Shown one piece after another: positions 2,567-10,265 of a stretch of DNA of 64,000 nt. The position numbers and the translations under genes were made by a program. The stretch's first letter is position 1; each line of letters starts with the position of its first letter. The stretch spans positions 248,001 to 312,000 of the forward strand of contig NZ_JOMR01000001.1 in assembly GCF_000711195.1 (NCBI RefSeq), written 5' to 3'. The notes under the pieces are model-generated. The model had not been told where the DNA came from, did not search any database, and saw nothing but the letters and a program-made list of their open reading frames with translations. This DNA is from Thiomicrospira pelophila DSM 1534. GTDB lineage: Bacteria; Pseudomonadota; Gammaproteobacteria; Thiomicrospirales; Thiomicrospiraceae.

Positions 2567-3415
2567 GTGACTCACTCGGAATCTTCAATTTTTATCAAAA
2601 TGGTGCTGTTAGTGTTACGGCCATTGATACGTATGCTGCTTAAGCAAGGGGTGGCTTACCCACTGTTCATTGAACTGGTTAAATCCAGTTATGTCCAGGT
2701 CGCGGAGCAAAGTATTGGTCATGCAAAAACACCGACAGATAGCTTAATTAGCGTACAAACCGGGCTCAATCGTAAAGAGGTCAAACGCCTGAGAAATTTA
2801 GATAACGATCCAGAGTTAAGCGCAAAGTTTAAGCAGGCTGGTATTGGCGCACAAATCGTGTCAATTTGGTTAAGCCAACCGTCCCTACTTGACCCAAAAG
2901 GCCAGCCGAAGCCGTTAGCGAGAGTGGGATTGGAGAGTCAAAATATGTCGTTTGAAGGTTTGGTGCGCTCGGTAACAAAGGATGTGCATCCACGTTCAAT
3001 ATTAGATGATTGGTTGGCACGTGGATTTGCGCGAATAGACGAAAATGATCAAGTGCACCTTACTCAAACCGCGTATGTACCTTCTGAAGATCAAGATGAA
3101 AAACTGTTCTTTGCGCAAAAAAACCTCACCGCGCATTTGAATGCGGTGGCGCATAATCTTGAGAACGAACCTGATCAGCCTGTAATGTTTGAACGCGCGG
3201 TTTATTACAACAAGCTCTCGTCTGAATCAATTGACATCTTGGATGACTGGAGTCGCCAAGCATCCATGAAGCTACTTTCAGAGTTCAACCTTAAAGCCCA
3301 AGCTTTGGCCGAAAATGAGAAACCGTCGGATAAATTGCACGTGGCTCATCTTGGGGTATATTTGTATCGATCAGACATAGATGACCTTGTGCCACCTAAG
3401 GAGGGTCAGTCGTGA
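2567..3415 (+). CDS. DUF6502 family protein, possible DNA-binding regulator
   Basis: A 282-aa soluble protein starting at GTG 2567. The N-terminal part (LRPLIRMLLKQGVAYPLFIE) matches the DUF6502 pattern as I know it. Residues about 60-80 contain SVQTGLNRKEVKRLR, which reads like a helix-turn-helix recognition segment, and a second winged-helix-like stretch is near residues 125-160. A regulator role is inference from this and from the twin operators just upstream. It overlaps the DUF5666 gene by 4 bp (GTGA), so the two are translationally coupled. DUF6502 and DUF5666 genes are often neighbours in gammaproteobacteria, to my knowledge. Confidence 0.75.
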   Translation: MTHSESSIFIKMVLLVLRPLIRMLLKQGVAYPLFIELVKSSYVQVAEQSIGHAKTPTDSLISVQTGLNRKEVKRLRNLDNDPELSAKFKQAGIGAQIVSIWLSQPSLLDPKGQPKPLARVGLESQNMSFEGLVRSVTKDVHPRSILDDWLARGFARIDENDQVHLTQTAYVPSEDQDEKLFFAQKNLTAHLNAVAHNLENEPDQPVMFERAVYYNKLSSESIDILDDWSRQASMKLLSEFNLKAQALAENEKPSDKLHVAHLGVYLYRSDIDDLVPPKEGQS

Positions 3416-4512
3416 TCAATTTGCTAAAACGTCTAGGTTTTGTCAGCTTTTTGCTGGTTTTAATGCTCAACACATCCTGCCAAACCCACCCCAACTCAAT
3501 CGCCAGCTTGACCGTGCCCAGCGCATCGGACGAAAACGATTCGGGCTTTGGTGGAACTGGCTTAATAAATGATAGTGGCTTTGGCGGCACAGGCGTCATA
3601 GGCGTGGTCACCGGATTTGGCAGTATTTGGGTGAATGGCCTACACATTAAATTAGATCAGCAAACCCAAGTATCAAGTCAGACAGAAGCTTTTGATTTAG
3701 ACCAGCTCGAAATTGGCCACCAAGTCAGTGTTAAATTGAGAGACAACTCGGATCTAGCCGAACGAGTAGAAGTGTTTTGGCCGATTCAAGGGCCAATTAA
3801 CCAGGTTGATAAAGACAATCAGACCATCCAAGTGTTGGGTCAGACCATACAGCTTGATCAACACACGCAAGGCTTGGAGCAACTTAAGGTTGGCGAATTT
3901 GTGCGCATCAACAGCTTTGGCGGTTCGAACAACCAGGCCTGGTATGCGACACGCATCGAATCACAACCAGGCCAACAGGCTTATGTGGAAGCGATTTTAA
4001 ACCAAGCGTCAGACCAAAGCTGGACGGTGGCCGGTACAAAACTGGAAACAACTCAGCTACCCCAAAACCCCCAACAAGGACAGCTAGTGCGTTTGCAGTT
4101 TAAAACCGAAAACAAAGTTCCGCGTTTAACAAGTGTTGAGCCGGTTATACGAACTCAAAAGCTCGAATCACAACGCCTAATAATTCAAGGCCAACCTCAA
4201 CGTGTTGGCGATAGCTGGTGGCTAGAAGGGGTTAAGGTTCAAGGGTTGCAACAGACTTCGCCCGCTGGATTACAGTTGTTTGAACTGCAGCAAGATCAGC
4301 AGGGCTGGCAGATTCTAAACCGGATTGAAATGCGCTCATGGCTTAAAGATTGGCCACAAACCATGCGGCAGTCAATAAAGCCGAATCAAGGTTTGCGAGT
4401 AAATGAATTGTTTAAAACACGTCAGCTAAATCATATCGCGCCTAGAGGAATGAAGCCCATGCGCGAGACCAGACCAGCACGCCCACCAGTGACACCATCT
4501 CAAAGGCATTAA
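3412..4512 (+). CDS. DUF5666 domain lipoprotein
   Basis: A 366-aa protein starting at GTG 3412 inside the stop of the DUF6502 gene. The hydrophobic N-terminus ends LNTSC, a loose lipobox with Cys23. Two copies of DSGFGGTG follow (residues about 43-60), then repeated small beta-rich DUF5666 modules (GFGSIWVNGLHIKLD, then units around INQVDKDNQTIQVLGQ), and a Pro/Arg-rich tail. Such proteins are probably envelope-attached beta-fold domains of unknown function. One perfect copy of the dispersed palindrome is embedded in codons for NNQAWY (3932-3943). Confidence 0.75.
   Translation: MINLLKRLGFVSFLLVLMLNTSCQTHPNSIASLTVPSASDENDSGFGGTGLINDSGFGGTGVIGVVTGFGSIWVNGLHIKLDQQTQVSSQTEAFDLDQLEIGHQVSVKLRDNSDLAERVEVFWPIQGPINQVDKDNQTIQVLGQTIQLDQHTQGLEQLKVGEFVRINSFGGSNNQAWYATRIESQPGQQAYVEAILNQASDQSWTVAGTKLETTQLPQNPQQGQLVRLQFKTENKVPRLTSVEPVIRTQKLESQRLIIQGQPQRVGDSWWLEGVKVQGLQQTSPAGLQLFELQQDQQGWQILNRIEMRSWLKDWPQTMRQSIKPNQGLRVNELFKTRQLNHIAPRGMKPMRETRPARPPVTPSQRH
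3932..3943. repeat. Dispersed palindrome ACCAGGCCTGGT, perfect, in DUF5666 gene
   Basis: Exact 12-bp copy, read as N-Q-A-W in the host gene. Confidence 0.9.
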
Positions 4513-5272: not shown

Positions 5273-5716
5273 TTATTTTGTAGGATGTTCGTAGTGAATA
5301 TAGGTTTGCAACACGCCATAAGCCATGGTGCCTAATAGTAAGCCAGCAAACGTAAAGATTGCGCCGATTTTGCCTTCGGCCATCATGGCCGGAATGGTGC
5401 CTGGGCAGGCGGCGGTCATGCCCCAGCCGATGCCGAACAACATCGCGCCTAAAATCAAACCTTGCTGATAGGGCTTTTTAACAAAGTCCACTTGTTCGCC
5501 GGTAGCGATGGAATGGACTTGAAATTTTTTGAGTAAGAAAACACCAATCATCGCGACGACGACGGCGGTGACGATGACTTCCATTAACTGAAAATCAATA
5601 AACAAGAACATTTTGGCGTGATAGTCATAGGTGGTGGCACCGGCTCGGCTCATTAAAAAACCAAACAGTCCACCCATAATGAGGGCAAATAGATTTACTT
5701 TTTTCAAGACTTTCAT
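5273..5716 (-). CDS. YeeE/YedE family permease, C-terminal half subunit (PmpB-like)
   Basis: A 147-aa membrane protein with about four transmembrane segments. It matches the second half of the YeeE/YedE (TsuA-like) thiosulfate/sulfur-compound importers: the motif GWGMTAACPGTIPA contains the conserved Cys-Pro of the substrate path. It starts 2 bases after the stop of the first-half gene, so the two halves form one operon and presumably one heterodimeric permease, as in PmpA/PmpB. Substrate is inferred (thiosulfate, sulfite or another sulfur anion) from the family and the sulfur-oxidiser context. Confidence 0.85.
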   Translation of the reverse strand: MKVLKKVNLFALIMGGLFGFLMSRAGATTYDYHAKMFLFIDFQLMEVIVTAVVVAMIGVFLLKKFQVHSIATGEQVDFVKKPYQQGLILGAMLFGIGWGMTAACPGTIPAMMAEGKIGAIFTFAGLLLGTMAYGVLQTYIHYEHPTK

Positions 5717-5718
5717 GA

Positions 5719-6207
5719 TTACAACCCAAATAAAAGGTGAGTGGTAATTAACGCGCTGCCAAAGAACACCACCCCAGCTAATAAGCTAGGAGGGTTAAGC
5801 ATTGCGCCACCCACTAATGCATGACCGGTGGTGCAAGCGCCCGCGAGTCGCGCTCCAAAACCTAATAACATACCGCCAAACACCAACCAGATCGCTTTAG
5901 CGGAATAGGTTTGCGGCAGAATCGCATCATACATACCCATATCAAAACTTAGATGCCAGCTGTCGGCCGAAGTTAGGGCTGAAATTAGTCCGCCAATTGG
6001 AATGCCAATCAAAAACCAAAGTTTTGAGTTGTTAAGGTTGCTGTATTCGCCCATGCGAAAGAACTTGATTTTGCGACAGACTAGCCCGCAAAGATTGCCA
6101 TAGCCAGTTGAACAACCGGCTGGCTTACCTAGTAGCCAAAAGTGACTGATAACGAAAAGACCGATCGCGATACCAGCAATCCAGCCAGCCCAAACTGATA
6201 TTTCCAT
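5719..6207 (-). CDS. YeeE/YedE family permease, N-terminal half subunit (PmpA-like)
   Basis: A 162-aa polytopic membrane protein. GKPAGCSTGYGNLCGLVC near residues 28-45 and GARLAGACTTGHALVGGA near residues 118-135 are the conserved Cys/Gly motifs of the YeeE/YedE fold. It lies directly upstream of the second half (2-base gap). The promoter gap 6208-6333 holds ATAAACCCTATAAG (6211) and ATAGGGTATAAATAA (6281), two mutually inverted words that could bind a sulfur-responsive repressor; this is a guess. Confidence 0.85.
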   Translation of the reverse strand: MEISVWAGWIAGIAIGLFVISHFWLLGKPAGCSTGYGNLCGLVCRKIKFFRMGEYSNLNNSKLWFLIGIPIGGLISALTSADSWHLSFDMGMYDAILPQTYSAKAIWLVFGGMLLGFGARLAGACTTGHALVGGAMLNPPSLLAGVVFFGSALITTHLLFGL

Positions 6208-6333: not shown

Positions 6334-8406
6334 TTAAGTTACTTCTCTAACTAGGCGAGTAATGTAATATTGAGTATCTGAACTTGTTTGTATCGGTTGC
6401 GTTTCGATATGGAAACGACAAAGTTCACCGTTCGGCGTAATCACACTTAAGTCTTCATGGTCAGCTCGCGATGCCATTTTGTGACGTTGATAGTGGGTCG
6501 CATAATGTCTGGCCGGTAAGCGTTGTTCAATCAAGGCTTGAATATTAGAGCGACCTTTAATTTCGCCCAATGGCGAAGCGGTCTGCCAAGTCGCGTCGGG
6601 ATGAAATAAGGCCGCGGCTTCTTGACCGGCACGCCGATCAACACAATCCAGAAAACGCATTAATAAAAGTCGCTTAGAGTGGCGTGACGCATAATGAGTA
6701 TGTAATAAATCATGCGCCTGCTCAGAGCCGGGTTGATTTAACTCGGTCTGATAAAGTGTTTGAATATCCGGGTTTTCATAAGAACGTCTGCGCGGCGAAT
6801 TGGCGTCAATGCTATAAATAGCCTGCATACGTTTTTCTAGGACGAGCGGATCGAGCGATTTTGGCTCGCCTCCGCCACCTAAACAACCACCGACACAAGC
6901 CATGACTTCAATTGCGACAAATTCATCGCGCCAGGTTTCCGAAGCAAACAGCTTTTGAGCACTGGCGATGCCGTTACAAATTGCGACCTTGCCCACGCCA
7001 GGAATATCGGCGGTTTTAACCCCTTGTGCCACGCCGCGCATTTGCTGCCATTCCAGCGGCATATTATCTTGTTGGCCGATAAAATGCGCCGCGGTGCGAA
7101 CCACGGCTTCCATCACGCCGCCCGATGCACCAAATATTTGCGCCGCCCCGGTGCTTTCACCCAATGGATTATCAAACGCGCCATCTTCGGGTAGAGCATT
7201 AAACGCAATGCCTCGGGCTTTAATCATTCGGGCCAATTCGCGTGTGGTTAATACGTGATCAATATCGCCCGATACGCCTGGCCGTTGGGCTTCATCTTTT
7301 TTGGCTGTACAAGGCATCACGCTGACCACATAGGGTTCCGCTTGGCCTTCGGCAAACTCCGCACCAAGCGAGCGTGCAAAAGCGCCACGTTTGGTGAGCG
7401 CGCCGTGCATTTGTTGCGGAGATTTTGTGGTGCTTAAATGGCTTAAAAGGTCGGGTCGATTAATTTCCACCCAGTTCACCCAGCCCGGGCAGCAAGACGT
7501 TAACAGCGGTAAGTTTTGCTGGCTTTTCAAGCGGCCCAAAAACTCTGTGCCTTCTTCCATAATAGTCAAATCCGCCGCAAAGTTGGTATCAAACACATAA
7601 TCAAACCCCAGCTGGCGCAAGGCATTCACCATGCGTCCGGTGCTGATTGTGCCGGGTTTCATGCCAAATTCTTCACTAATCGCCACTCGCGTGGCCGGCG
7701 CAACTTGAACCGCCGACACACGACGGTGATTATCCAAAGTGTGTAATACTTCGTGCCAATGTGGGGTTTCAATCAATGCCCCAACCGGGCATACCAGCGT
7801 GCATTGACCGCAAGAAATACAGTTGGTTTGGGCTAAGGATTGATCAAATACCGTGACCGGAATGCGCCCAGAACCGCCTTCGGCAAATCCAATAATATGT
7901 TGTTGTTGACCTGCATCACCGCAAGCTTCGGCGCATAAGCCACATTCAATACACTTGGAAAGATCGCGCCAAATACTGGGCGAGGTATGATCGGTGAGAT
8001 GATGTTCAGGATGGTCTTCTGAGCCGCGTTCAAGTTTGGGCCAGCGATCTTCTAATTGATACTCACTCACCAATTCTTGAAACTGACAGGAGCCATTGAC
8101 TTCACAGCGAATGCAATCGTTTGGGTGGCGCGCCAGTAGAAACTCAAGATCGGTTTTGCGAAATTCAGTTAACTCCGCCGAATCGGTCACCACCACATCG
8201 CCGTCTTTGACGGGCGTGATACAGGCTGGTTGAGGGCGTTTTTCGCTACTGACATCCACCAAACACATGCGACACACACCATGAGAAGGTAAGCGCGGGT
8301 GATAACAAAGTGTAGGCAGATGCACGCCTGCAGCTTTAGCGGCGTTTAAGAGGGTTGTGCCGTCCTCGACTTCGACCAATTTACTATTTACCGTGACCTT
8401 AAGCAT
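6334..8406 (-). CDS. [FeFe] hydrogenase with C-terminal SnoaL/NTF2-like domain
   Basis: A 690-aa cytoplasmic iron hydrogenase of the M3 (CpI-like) layout. An N-terminal [2Fe-2S] domain has Cys34, 45, 48 and 62. A His-ligated [4Fe-4S] motif follows (HPNDCIRCEVNGSC), then two [4Fe-4S] motifs (CIECGLCAEAC and CISCGQCTLVC). The H-cluster has TSCCPGW (303-309), MPCTAKK (from 364) and MACVGGC (502-508), so the proton-relay Cys305 and ligands Cys306, 366, 504 and 508 are all present. The usual Pro in MACPGGC is Val505. After the normal end near residue 580, about 105 extra residues look like a SnoaL/NTF2 fold (CVDRRAGQEAAALFHPDATW). It either evolves or oxidises H2. No HydE, HydF or HydG maturase gene is in the window. 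Confidence 0.93.
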   Translation of the reverse strand: MLKVTVNSKLVEVEDGTTLLNAAKAAGVHLPTLCYHPRLPSHGVCRMCLVDVSSEKRPQPACITPVKDGDVVVTDSAELTEFRKTDLEFLLARHPNDCIRCEVNGSCQFQELVSEYQLEDRWPKLERGSEDHPEHHLTDHTSPSIWRDLSKCIECGLCAEACGDAGQQQHIIGFAEGGSGRIPVTVFDQSLAQTNCISCGQCTLVCPVGALIETPHWHEVLHTLDNHRRVSAVQVAPATRVAISEEFGMKPGTISTGRMVNALRQLGFDYVFDTNFAADLTIMEEGTEFLGRLKSQQNLPLLTSCCPGWVNWVEINRPDLLSHLSTTKSPQQMHGALTKRGAFARSLGAEFAEGQAEPYVVSVMPCTAKKDEAQRPGVSGDIDHVLTTRELARMIKARGIAFNALPEDGAFDNPLGESTGAAQIFGASGGVMEAVVRTAAHFIGQQDNMPLEWQQMRGVAQGVKTADIPGVGKVAICNGIASAQKLFASETWRDEFVAIEVMACVGGCLGGGGEPKSLDPLVLEKRMQAIYSIDANSPRRRSYENPDIQTLYQTELNQPGSEQAHDLLHTHYASRHSKRLLLMRFLDCVDRRAGQEAAALFHPDATWQTASPLGEIKGRSNIQALIEQRLPARHYATHYQRHKMASRADHEDLSVITPNGELCRFHIETQPIQTSSDTQYYITRLVREVT

Positions 8407-8457
8407 ATCATCCCCTTTCTCAGGATATTCTGATATTGATAACTTAATTTAACAACA

Positions 8458-8469
8458 ACCAGGCCTGGT
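8458..8469. repeat. Dispersed palindrome ACCAGGCCTGGT, perfect, intergenic
   Basis: Extends to a 16-bp perfect palindrome CAACCAGGCCTGGTTG (8456-8471), 51 bases upstream of the hydrogenase start and 79 bases past the acetyltransferase stop. Confidence 0.9.
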
Positions 8470-8548
8470 TGCTAAAAATATTTTAAAACCGATCAATGGG
8501 TCTTAAGTTTCAGGCGTTATCCCTGTGGGCATAAATTGCGTAATTTGT

Positions 8549-9091
8549 TTACCAATATTCAGGTTTGGCAAGGGCGGGAACACAGCTTGGTTTTTCTCTA
8601 ATGTGGGGAATAGCCTTGTTGGTTAAGGATTGCACTAACCAACCTTGTGGATAGGTGAGTTTTAGCGGGGCAGGAATTTGTTGTTCGCTAATCGTTTGAA
8701 AACCGACTTTGCTGTAATAGTTTGGATCACCATAGGTGAATACGAGTTCAATGCCGTTCTGCTTTAATTTTTGTAAACCAAATTGAATCAATTGTTGACC
8801 AATACGTTGGCCTTGAAACTCAGTGGTGACGGCTACCGGAGCAAGTATAAAAGCTTGTAAGCCATGTGCAAAAAACAAACGTGAACAAATAATACAGCCA
8901 ATAATGTTGTTATCTTCCTTGGCCAAAAAACAAAATACGTCCTGTTCAGGTGTTTGTGTCAGCAGTTCAAACGCTAAAAAACCAATCCGTTTCCCTTCCT
9001 CAGCCCCTTCAGAATCGCTAAAGGTTCTTGTGACCATCGCTTGAATTTCAGGGATATCATTTGGTGAGTGGCTTAAGATTTGGAGTGGCAT
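8549..9091 (-). CDS. GNAT family N-acetyltransferase (YhbS-like)
   Basis: A 180-aa GNAT protein. The acetyl-CoA loop is seen as VTTEFQGQRIGQQLIQFGL near residues 88-106, followed by the typical FTYGDPNYYSKVGF strand-helix near residue 120. The whole pattern matches YhbS-type acetyltransferases, which include small-molecule and protein acetylators of largely unknown substrate. It is transcribed in the same direction as the hydrogenase, 142 bases apart, with a palindrome copy between them, so co-transcription is uncertain. Confidence 0.85.
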   Translation of the reverse strand: MPLQILSHSPNDIPEIQAMVTRTFSDSEGAEEGKRIGFLAFELLTQTPEQDVFCFLAKEDNNIIGCIICSRLFFAHGLQAFILAPVAVTTEFQGQRIGQQLIQFGLQKLKQNGIELVFTYGDPNYYSKVGFQTISEQQIPAPLKLTYPQGWLVQSLTNKAIPHIREKPSCVPALAKPEYW

Positions 9092-9218
9092 TGTCTTTTC
9101 TCACTTTTTTGTGTGGAGTGACCAATATTTATCTGTAGCGTTTTCACTAGGAGTCTAAAAGGCACTAAGCCTGGTAGCTCTTAGATTAAGCGCAATATTA
9201 ATATGCTTTGATGTGTTG

Positions 9219-10265
9219 TTACTTGATGTTTTTAACAGATTTAATTAGTTTACTGAGCTGTTTGGATTGTACCCTTTTCTCAGCTTCGGTTGCGGTATTG
9301 CAAGCTTGCTCTTTCATTAACTTTTGATAGTTTATCAAGCGTCGTTCATCGATTTTTCCAGATTGAATCGCGGCCAGAACGGCACAACCTGGTTCGGATT
9401 TGTGCTGACAGTCCGAGAACCGGCATTGCATCGCTAAATCCGAAATATCCGTAAATGTTTGGTCTACGCCCTTTTTACAGTCAACAAGTTGCAACTCCCT
9501 CATACCCGGTGTGTCTAAGAGCAGTACACCAGAAGATGTTAAGTGAATTGAACGAGAGGTGGTCGTATGACGTCCTCGACTATCAGCTTCTCGAATAAAG
9601 TGCGTTTCTTGTATCTGACCTCCTAGCAGGGTGTTCACCAGCGTTGACTTGCCGACTCCAGATGAGCCCAAAAAGGCCAGTGTATGCCCTGGTGATAACC
9701 AATGATTTAAGCTTTGCAGTGAAGCTGGATCATGCGCATTCACGGCAAACACCGGAAGCATGCTGTCTAATGCCTGAACTGCGTCTAAAAATGTCTCGGC
9801 AGATTCGCATAAATCAGCTTTTGTGAGTAGAACAATCGGTTCAACCCCCGCCTCATGAGTCAGTGCTAAATAACGTTCTATACGGTTTAAATTAAAGTCA
9901 TCGTTCAATGAGCTGACAATTAAAACCGTATCCACATTAGCGGAAATCAATTGACGATAAACTCTTGTTCCCGCTGCTTTTCGAGAAAATAAAGACATTC
10001 TGTCTAACAAACGGATAAATCGATGGTCGGAATCAATTAAAACCCAGTCGCCAACAGCTAAATCGGGAATGGCTTTTGTGATGGCAATGGAACATGATCC
10101 ATCTGCGGTTAATAGAAAAATATTAGAACGCTCAACTCCAAACACTCGCGCTGGAGTTGAGTTTTCTAACTCATCAAGTGAGAGTTGATGTTGGAAAAAG
10201 GGTTTCCAGCCTAATTGATCTAGAGAATAGTATTGCATCACAAGTTCCATAGCGCCTACGGACAC
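9219..10265 (-). CDS. rsgA: Ribosome small-subunit biogenesis GTPase RsgA
   Basis: A circularly permuted GTPase that checks late 30S assembly. An OB-fold N-terminus is followed by G4 LTKADL, G1 GSSGVGKST and G3 DTPGMREL in that permuted order, then the C-terminal zinc motif CRFSDCQHKSEPGC. The 348-aa length is normal. The open frame begins with GTG at 10265; in-frame ATG codons at 10250 and 10238 are equally possible starts, the last giving MQYYSLDQLGW. Upstream is the 494-bp non-coding stretch, which probably carries its promoter. Confidence 0.92.
   Translation of the reverse strand: MSVGAMELVMQYYSLDQLGWKPFFQHQLSLDELENSTPARVFGVERSNIFLLTADGSCSIAITKAIPDLAVGDWVLIDSDHRFIRLLDRMSLFSRKAAGTRVYRQLISANVDTVLIVSSLNDDFNLNRIERYLALTHEAGVEPIVLLTKADLCESAETFLDAVQALDSMLPVFAVNAHDPASLQSLNHWLSPGHTLAFLGSSGVGKSTLVNTLLGGQIQETHFIREADSRGRHTTTSRSIHLTSSGVLLLDTPGMRELQLVDCKKGVDQTFTDISDLAMQCRFSDCQHKSEPGCAVLAAIQSGKIDERRLINYQKLMKEQACNTATEAEKRVQSKQLSKLIKSVKNIK

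Follow-up and report, generated by a model that had tools for sequence, protein, structure and literature searches.

Gene and domain layout

The gene described here lies at positions 6334..8406 (−) of the window, by which we mean the whole 64,000-nucleotide stretch of Thiomicrospira pelophila DSM 1534 DNA that was analysed, and its open reading frame runs without interruption through 690 codons to encode a 690-aa [FeFe]-hydrogenase-like protein with a C-terminal SnoaL domain. The parts of this protein, all encoded on the same (−) strand, are arranged as follows: The N-terminal [2Fe-2S] ferredoxin-like domain (Fer2_4; residues 2–76, 8179..8403) was located by a Pfam-type profile and by alignment, and its ligands Cys34, 45, 48 and 62 are kept in 46 of the 46 homologues that cover it. 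It is followed by a NuoG-type His/Cys [4Fe-4S] region (residues 83–120, 8047..8160) with conserved His94, Cys98, Cys101 and Cys107, and by two ferredoxin-type [4Fe-4S] clusters (residues 150–211, 7774..7959) whose ligands, Cys152, 155, 158 and 162 and Cys196, 199, 202 and 206, are invariant. The H-domain (Fe_hyd_lg_C, 275 bits; residues 232–512, 6871..7713) carries the TSCCP, MPCxxKK and MACxGGC motifs with the four cysteine ligands, and its H-cluster ligands, relay and proton path are invariant. The Fe_hyd_SSU profile match (residues 522–575, 6682..6843), the normal C-terminal end of a hydrogenase core, stops at residue 575, and the SnoaL/NTF2-like domain, recognised by profile, model and fold search, takes up residues 577–690 plus the stop codon (6334..6678).

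Residues 1–576 align end to end with HydA chains of solved structure (8a6t_A, E 3e-144; CpI 4xdc_A, E 5e-107), which bears out the M3-type catalytic core proposed in the sequence-only reading, and the H-cluster ligands it had named, C306, C366, C504 and C508, fall on CpI C300, C355, C499 and C503 in the alignment. The TIGR02512 match (434 bits, cut-off 406) makes the protein a group A [FeFe]-hydrogenase by sequence, and the best NCBIfam model, NF040763, scores 669 bits, under its cut-off of 765. The layout of the window protein, an M3-type [FeFe]-hydrogenase core (1–576) followed by a SnoaL/NTF2 domain (577–690), is confirmed.

The C-terminal domain

A SnoaL/NTF2 tail fused in frame after the hydrogenase core had also been proposed, with its start at position 6660; the in-frame extension stands, and the start lies about six residues earlier, at 6678. 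Residues 577–690 match SnoaL_4 (PF13577) with 33.4 bits against a cut-off of 24, and among 47 homologous tails 45 match SnoaL_4 and 46 match SnoaL_2. A phmmer search of the tail sequence against the PDB gave no significant match. AlphaFold, given 47 homologues, models the tail with a pLDDT of 93.2 and a pTM of 0.86, values that rule out a disordered tail, and in the PDB the model finds ketosteroid isomerases (Foldseek E 3.7e-5, probability 1.00; VIA-align Z up to 12.8), so that structure prediction and fold search return the ordered, cone-shaped alpha+beta SnoaL/NTF2 fold that had been anticipated. In its FeS region the model of the whole protein has low confidence (pLDDT 30–45).

Judged from the alignment, the tail is not an isomerase of the ketosteroid isomerase (KSI) type, because two of the three KSI catalytic residues are replaced (Tyr16 and Asp40 by Phe/Leu and Ala; Asp103 could not be placed). 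The domain may bind a ligand or serve in dimerisation, since its fold is compatible with either, and it might regulate or localise the enzyme, as the sequence-only reading suggested. Its foreignness to the standard [FeFe] classes holds among those named classes that could be checked.

Distribution, phylogeny and selection

Among 84,980 species genomes scanned, 50 loci were found, 48 of which encode fusion-type proteins, and the tail is present wherever the 3′ end of the gene is available. The sequence-only reading had treated the fusion as a one-off; it proved instead to be a conserved and widespread arrangement, with about 48 proteins in Gamma-, Beta-, Alpha- and Zetaproteobacteria. A sequencing frameshift that joined two genes is ruled out, because the identical in-frame fusion recurs in about 48 other genomes. 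The hosts include Thiomicrospira, Thiomicrorhabdus, Hydrogenovibrio, Gallionella, Nitrosomonas and Mariprofundus, as well as Janthinobacterium, Pseudoduganella, Aquabacterium, Salipiger, Brevundimonas and Phenylobacterium, and most of these genera are respiratory aerobes or microaerophiles. The sole two non-fusion loci (L048 and L049) encode a core only, with 46% identity. The window protein is 93% identical to that of another Thiomicrospira (L043). The gene is patchy within the window's family (11 of the 35 related genomes searched), and of 398 genomes sampled across the phylum, 4 have a member of the H-domain family, which is of the fusion type in three. No relatives were found on viral contigs, and searches of plasmids found canonical HydA only and no fusion.

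In the tree, 44 fusion proteins form a single clade with support of 100/100 on a stem of 2.34 substitutions per site; the position of this clade among the distant outgroups is uncertain owing to long branches. The dN/dS ratio is 0.04–0.19 for the core, and for the tail it is 0.14–0.51 in eight of nine pairs, the ninth being a very close pair whose value of 0.88 has few changes behind it. Both core and tail are under purifying selection. These data bear on the idea that the gene is a decaying relic of an anaerobic hydrogenase, for which one might cite the patchy occurrence within genus and family and one degenerate paralogue in Aquabacterium; low dN/dS and an active site (below) that is invariant across the alpha, beta, gamma and zeta classes refute it, and we regard it as scarcely credible. 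The paralogue, a shortened second HydA-SnoaL copy in Aquabacterium sp. CECT 9606 (L051:7848-9380), lies on the same contig as the intact gene (L036:8001-10085) and has lost FeS and H-domain segments through in-frame deletions. Layout and selection show the SnoaL-tailed group A HydA proteins to be a distinct, maintained clade in oxygen-respiring proteobacteria. Our literature search found no paper that joins [FeFe]-hydrogenase with SnoaL, and as far as that search reached the HydA-SnoaL class is undescribed.

Absence of the H-cluster maturases

The above measurements establish a maintained hydrogenase-like protein, but do its hosts encode the means to build its cofactor? The [2Fe] subcluster of the H-cluster requires HydE, HydF and HydG (PMC6212873). 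The host genome is a single contig of 2.1 Mb and is 100% complete, and in it HydE and HydG gave no match at E ≤ 0.001, and HydF gave GTPase cross-matches only (best 89 bits against a cut-off of 325). Beyond it, no HydG exceeded the cut-off in any of the 47 other fusion genomes, no HydE did so in the 48 fusion genomes searched, and the HydF-specific domain HydF_tetramer was found in none of 48, the window's own genome included. The comparison genomes are mostly MAGs or lack a stated completeness, so that each MAG absence is weak singly, and the absences are strong only when taken together with the 12 fusion genomes, the window's included, that are at least 99% complete. The plain [FeFe]-hydrogenase identity originally assigned to the protein does not hold up in this respect, since the H-cluster maturases are not encoded. 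The two tail-less loci, which are in KSB1-type MAGs (L048 and L049, HydA at 8001-9713 in each), have TSCSP in place of TSCCP, and their genomes likewise have no HydE, HydF or HydG over the cut-off.

Could an ordinary HydEFG set be present and have been overlooked, being divergent or unassembled? The many incomplete MAGs among the comparison genomes would allow this; the window's own genome, however, is complete in one contig without matches, the absence is repeated in about 48 genomes, and the searches recovered canonical sets where these exist (T. maritima in all controls, and HydE with 298 bits on the HydA contig of G381, a gammaproteobacterial genome with a canonical HydA) and even E. coli cross-matches. 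This reading is largely refuted, and we consider it very improbable. Nor is the [NiFe]-type Fe-CO/CN assembly pathway indicated as a substitute: HypD, its scaffold, is absent from 45 of 49 fusion genomes, the T. pelophila genome among them. This genome has neither HydE nor HydG, even as a cross-match, nor HypD, and therefore no known Fe-CO/CN chemistry.

Conservation of the active site

The active site is nonetheless intact. C306, C366, C504 and C508 are invariant across the fusion proteins, as are the pocket residues K369 (the lysine beside cyanide), M364, M502 and F425 and all ligands of the [2Fe-2S] and [4Fe-4S] clusters of the accessory wire, and the proton path (C305, E285, S325, E288 and R292) is invariant in 49 of 49. 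In all, 23 of 24 pocket and path positions are invariant, as against 211 of 576 core columns. An active site that is tighter than average is expected of any enzyme; the point of the invariance is that there is no relaxation in genomes that lack the maturases. Fixed differences from canonical enzymes occur at CpI positions V233, N487 and Q509, which have become T, W and E, respectively, the last of these turning GGGQP into GGGEP.

Such conservation bears on a second explanation, that this is a genuine [FeFe]-hydrogenase that receives its [2Fe] subcluster by a HydEFG-independent route and evolves or senses H2 at low oxygen. The residues that an active group A enzyme uses for catalysis, the proton path and the electron wire are all retained, as this explanation would have it, and the absence of HydE, HydG and HypD from the window's own genome and the lack of H2 uptake by three strains (PMC4744846) count against it. 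We keep it as a tentative but serious possibility, because the invariance of contacts that serve only the di-iron site is otherwise hard to explain.

Gene neighbourhood

No conserved neighbour or operon partner was found across the 50 loci. NuoE/NuoF-like subunits, the mark of HydABC enzymes of groups A3 and A6, adjoin canonical A6 genes in the comparison loci; none is adjacent in the window and they are no conserved neighbour in the 50 loci. Downstream of HydA on the same strand, window positions 5273-6207 hold two half-size YeeE/YedE-type (Sulf_transp) genes, a pair that is kept at three Thiomicrospira loci (the window, L029 and L043) and absent at loci outside the genus. Elsewhere in the window, a DUF5666 lipoprotein-like gene (3412-4509) overlaps the end of a DUF6502 gene (2567-3415).

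Individual loci have more suggestive neighbours. A pyruvate:ferredoxin oxidoreductase lies beside the gene at L044, and 2-oxoacid:ferredoxin oxidoreductase subunits do so at L015 and L030; Hsp20 and a Crp-type regulator are near it at L042, phasin and Usp at L028, arginine deiminase at L040, and a phosphoribosyltransferase-esterase protein and PhaC at L039. In general character these low-oxygen or stress neighbourhoods resemble the low-oxygen-activated locus of Burkholderia. The oxidoreductases and the Hsp20, Crp-type, Usp, phasin and arginine deiminase genes speak for a working hydrogenase with a cofactor assembled by another route, and the genome-wide counts speak against it, since POR genes occur in 22 of 49 fusion genomes and in 121 of 299 Pseudomonadota genomes, which is no enrichment, and the host genome has none. 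Ferredoxin-fed fermentation as a general rule was rejected on the same counts, and we retain the low-oxygen/stress context as a lead only, because the genome-level test did not support the POR link. L015 (2745-7964, Gallionellaceae) and L030 (8528-13619, Oxalobacteraceae) have a common cassette, on opposite sides of the HydA-SnoaL gene, that consists of a GltD-like FAD/FeS protein, 2-oxoacid:ferredoxin oxidoreductase alpha and beta subunits and a CBS protein.

Among 199 neighbouring genes, E1-E2 ATPase occurs five times and erythromycin esterase, CBS and POR_N three times each, and none of these is among the 25 families listed for 242 control genes. Low-oxygen persistence islands were not accepted on this basis, as the family comparison is exploratory, with contig ends as control regions and only the 25 top families compared. 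FNR-type boxes with at most one mismatch occur in 3 of 45 upstream regions against 0.4 in shuffles, which is a weak excess; they lie upstream of HydA at L038, L030 and L044 (at −214, −171 and −133, respectively; 0–1 mismatches).

The lack of a conserved metabolic partner gene would also suit a redox or gas sensor, in which the H-domain senses and the SnoaL domain relays the signal as PAS does in HydS of groups C and D, and PAS-HydS is a precedent for an H-domain with an accessory domain of sensory type (PMC8924675). SnoaL, however, has no established role in signalling, the proton-relay Cys missing from sensory HydS is invariant in the fusion proteins, and no kinase, phosphatase or regulator is a conserved neighbour, so we think a sensor unlikely.

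Function of the fusion protein

We favour the following explanation, to which we assign a probability of about one half (0.52): the fusion proteins form a HydA lineage that is maintained, with an active site that HydEFG does not load, and are probably repurposed Fe-S redox enzymes with a ligand-binding or dimerising SnoaL domain. A repurposed Fe-S oxidoreductase is favoured because the maturases are missing, T. chilensis and others consumed no H2, and Rhodospirillum rubrum provides a precedent (both below). Ordinary Fe-S assembly would supply the [4Fe-4S]H cubane and the accessory clusters, and the protein would carry no HydEFG-built [2Fe] subcluster. It would act as a soluble Fe-S oxidoreductase in which the NuoG-like wire leads electrons into or out of what was once the di-iron pocket. 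This pocket may now be occupied by another small ligand or cofactor, and the SnoaL domain might dimerise the enzyme or bind or position a small molecule beside the H-domain. Despite the hydrogenase look and wiring, H2 turnover by the known way is probably not to be expected in these hosts.

Four points count against this explanation. Over the 50 loci no conserved gene neighbour points to a substrate or partner, the H2 tests cited below measured uptake under a single set of conditions, the comparison genomes are in large part MAGs, and C305, K369, M364, M502 and F425, which make di-iron or proton-relay contacts only, are kept beyond what a cubane alone would need; their retention suggests something H-cluster-like in the pocket. 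A bolder reading, which we find doubtful, is that a lineage of aerobic proteobacteria dispenses with HydE, HydF, HydG and Hyp and still makes a catalytic H-cluster, or a di-iron cofactor that resembles one, with the SnoaL domain built into a loading, protection or substrate step. Databases enter the fusion proteins under group A1 of the [FeFe]-hydrogenases and predict H2 metabolism on that basis. Should the hosts be unable to make the H-cluster, such predictions fail throughout a whole set of proteobacteria; should they be able to, a highly unusual cofactor is assembled by an undiscovered route in organisms that live with oxygen, and such a route would bear directly on oxygen-tolerant H2 catalysts.

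Comparison with known systems

The NADH-dependent A6 or electron-bifurcating HydA1 (8a6t) is like residues 1–576 end to end and in its cluster-binding motifs, and the fusion proteins differ from it in having no HydB/HydC neighbours, a SnoaL tail, no maturases in the genome and a separate long-stem clade. CpI of Clostridium pasteurianum (group A1, M3 architecture) is similar in its N-terminal FeS domains, H-domain, H-cluster ligands and proton path; the fusion clade differs in T, W and E at CpI V233, N487 and Q509 and in the extra C-terminal domain, and CpI hosts encode HydEFG. Ketosteroid isomerase, SnoaL and NTF2-like proteins have the fold of the tail (Z about 12), which differs from them in its fusion to HydA and in the replaced KSI Tyr16 and Asp40.

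The group A1 [FeFe] entries of Thiomicrospira and relatives in the scheme of Greening et al. are very probably identical to the fusion clade, as T. chilensis DSM 12352 is our locus L050 and its 690-aa fusion is confirmed. HydDB assigns A1 by default where a downstream partner domain is absent (PMC5037454), and in the literature searched we found no discussion of the tail or the missing maturases of these Thiomicrospira-type entries. T. chilensis, T. kuenenii and T. pelophila, all listed as A1 carriers, consumed no H2 in a study that measured uptake, not evolution, under a single set of conditions (PMC4744846). The HydA of R. rubrum resembles the fusion proteins in being a HydA without HydEFG, and has been termed probably inactive or of another role (PMC4967309).
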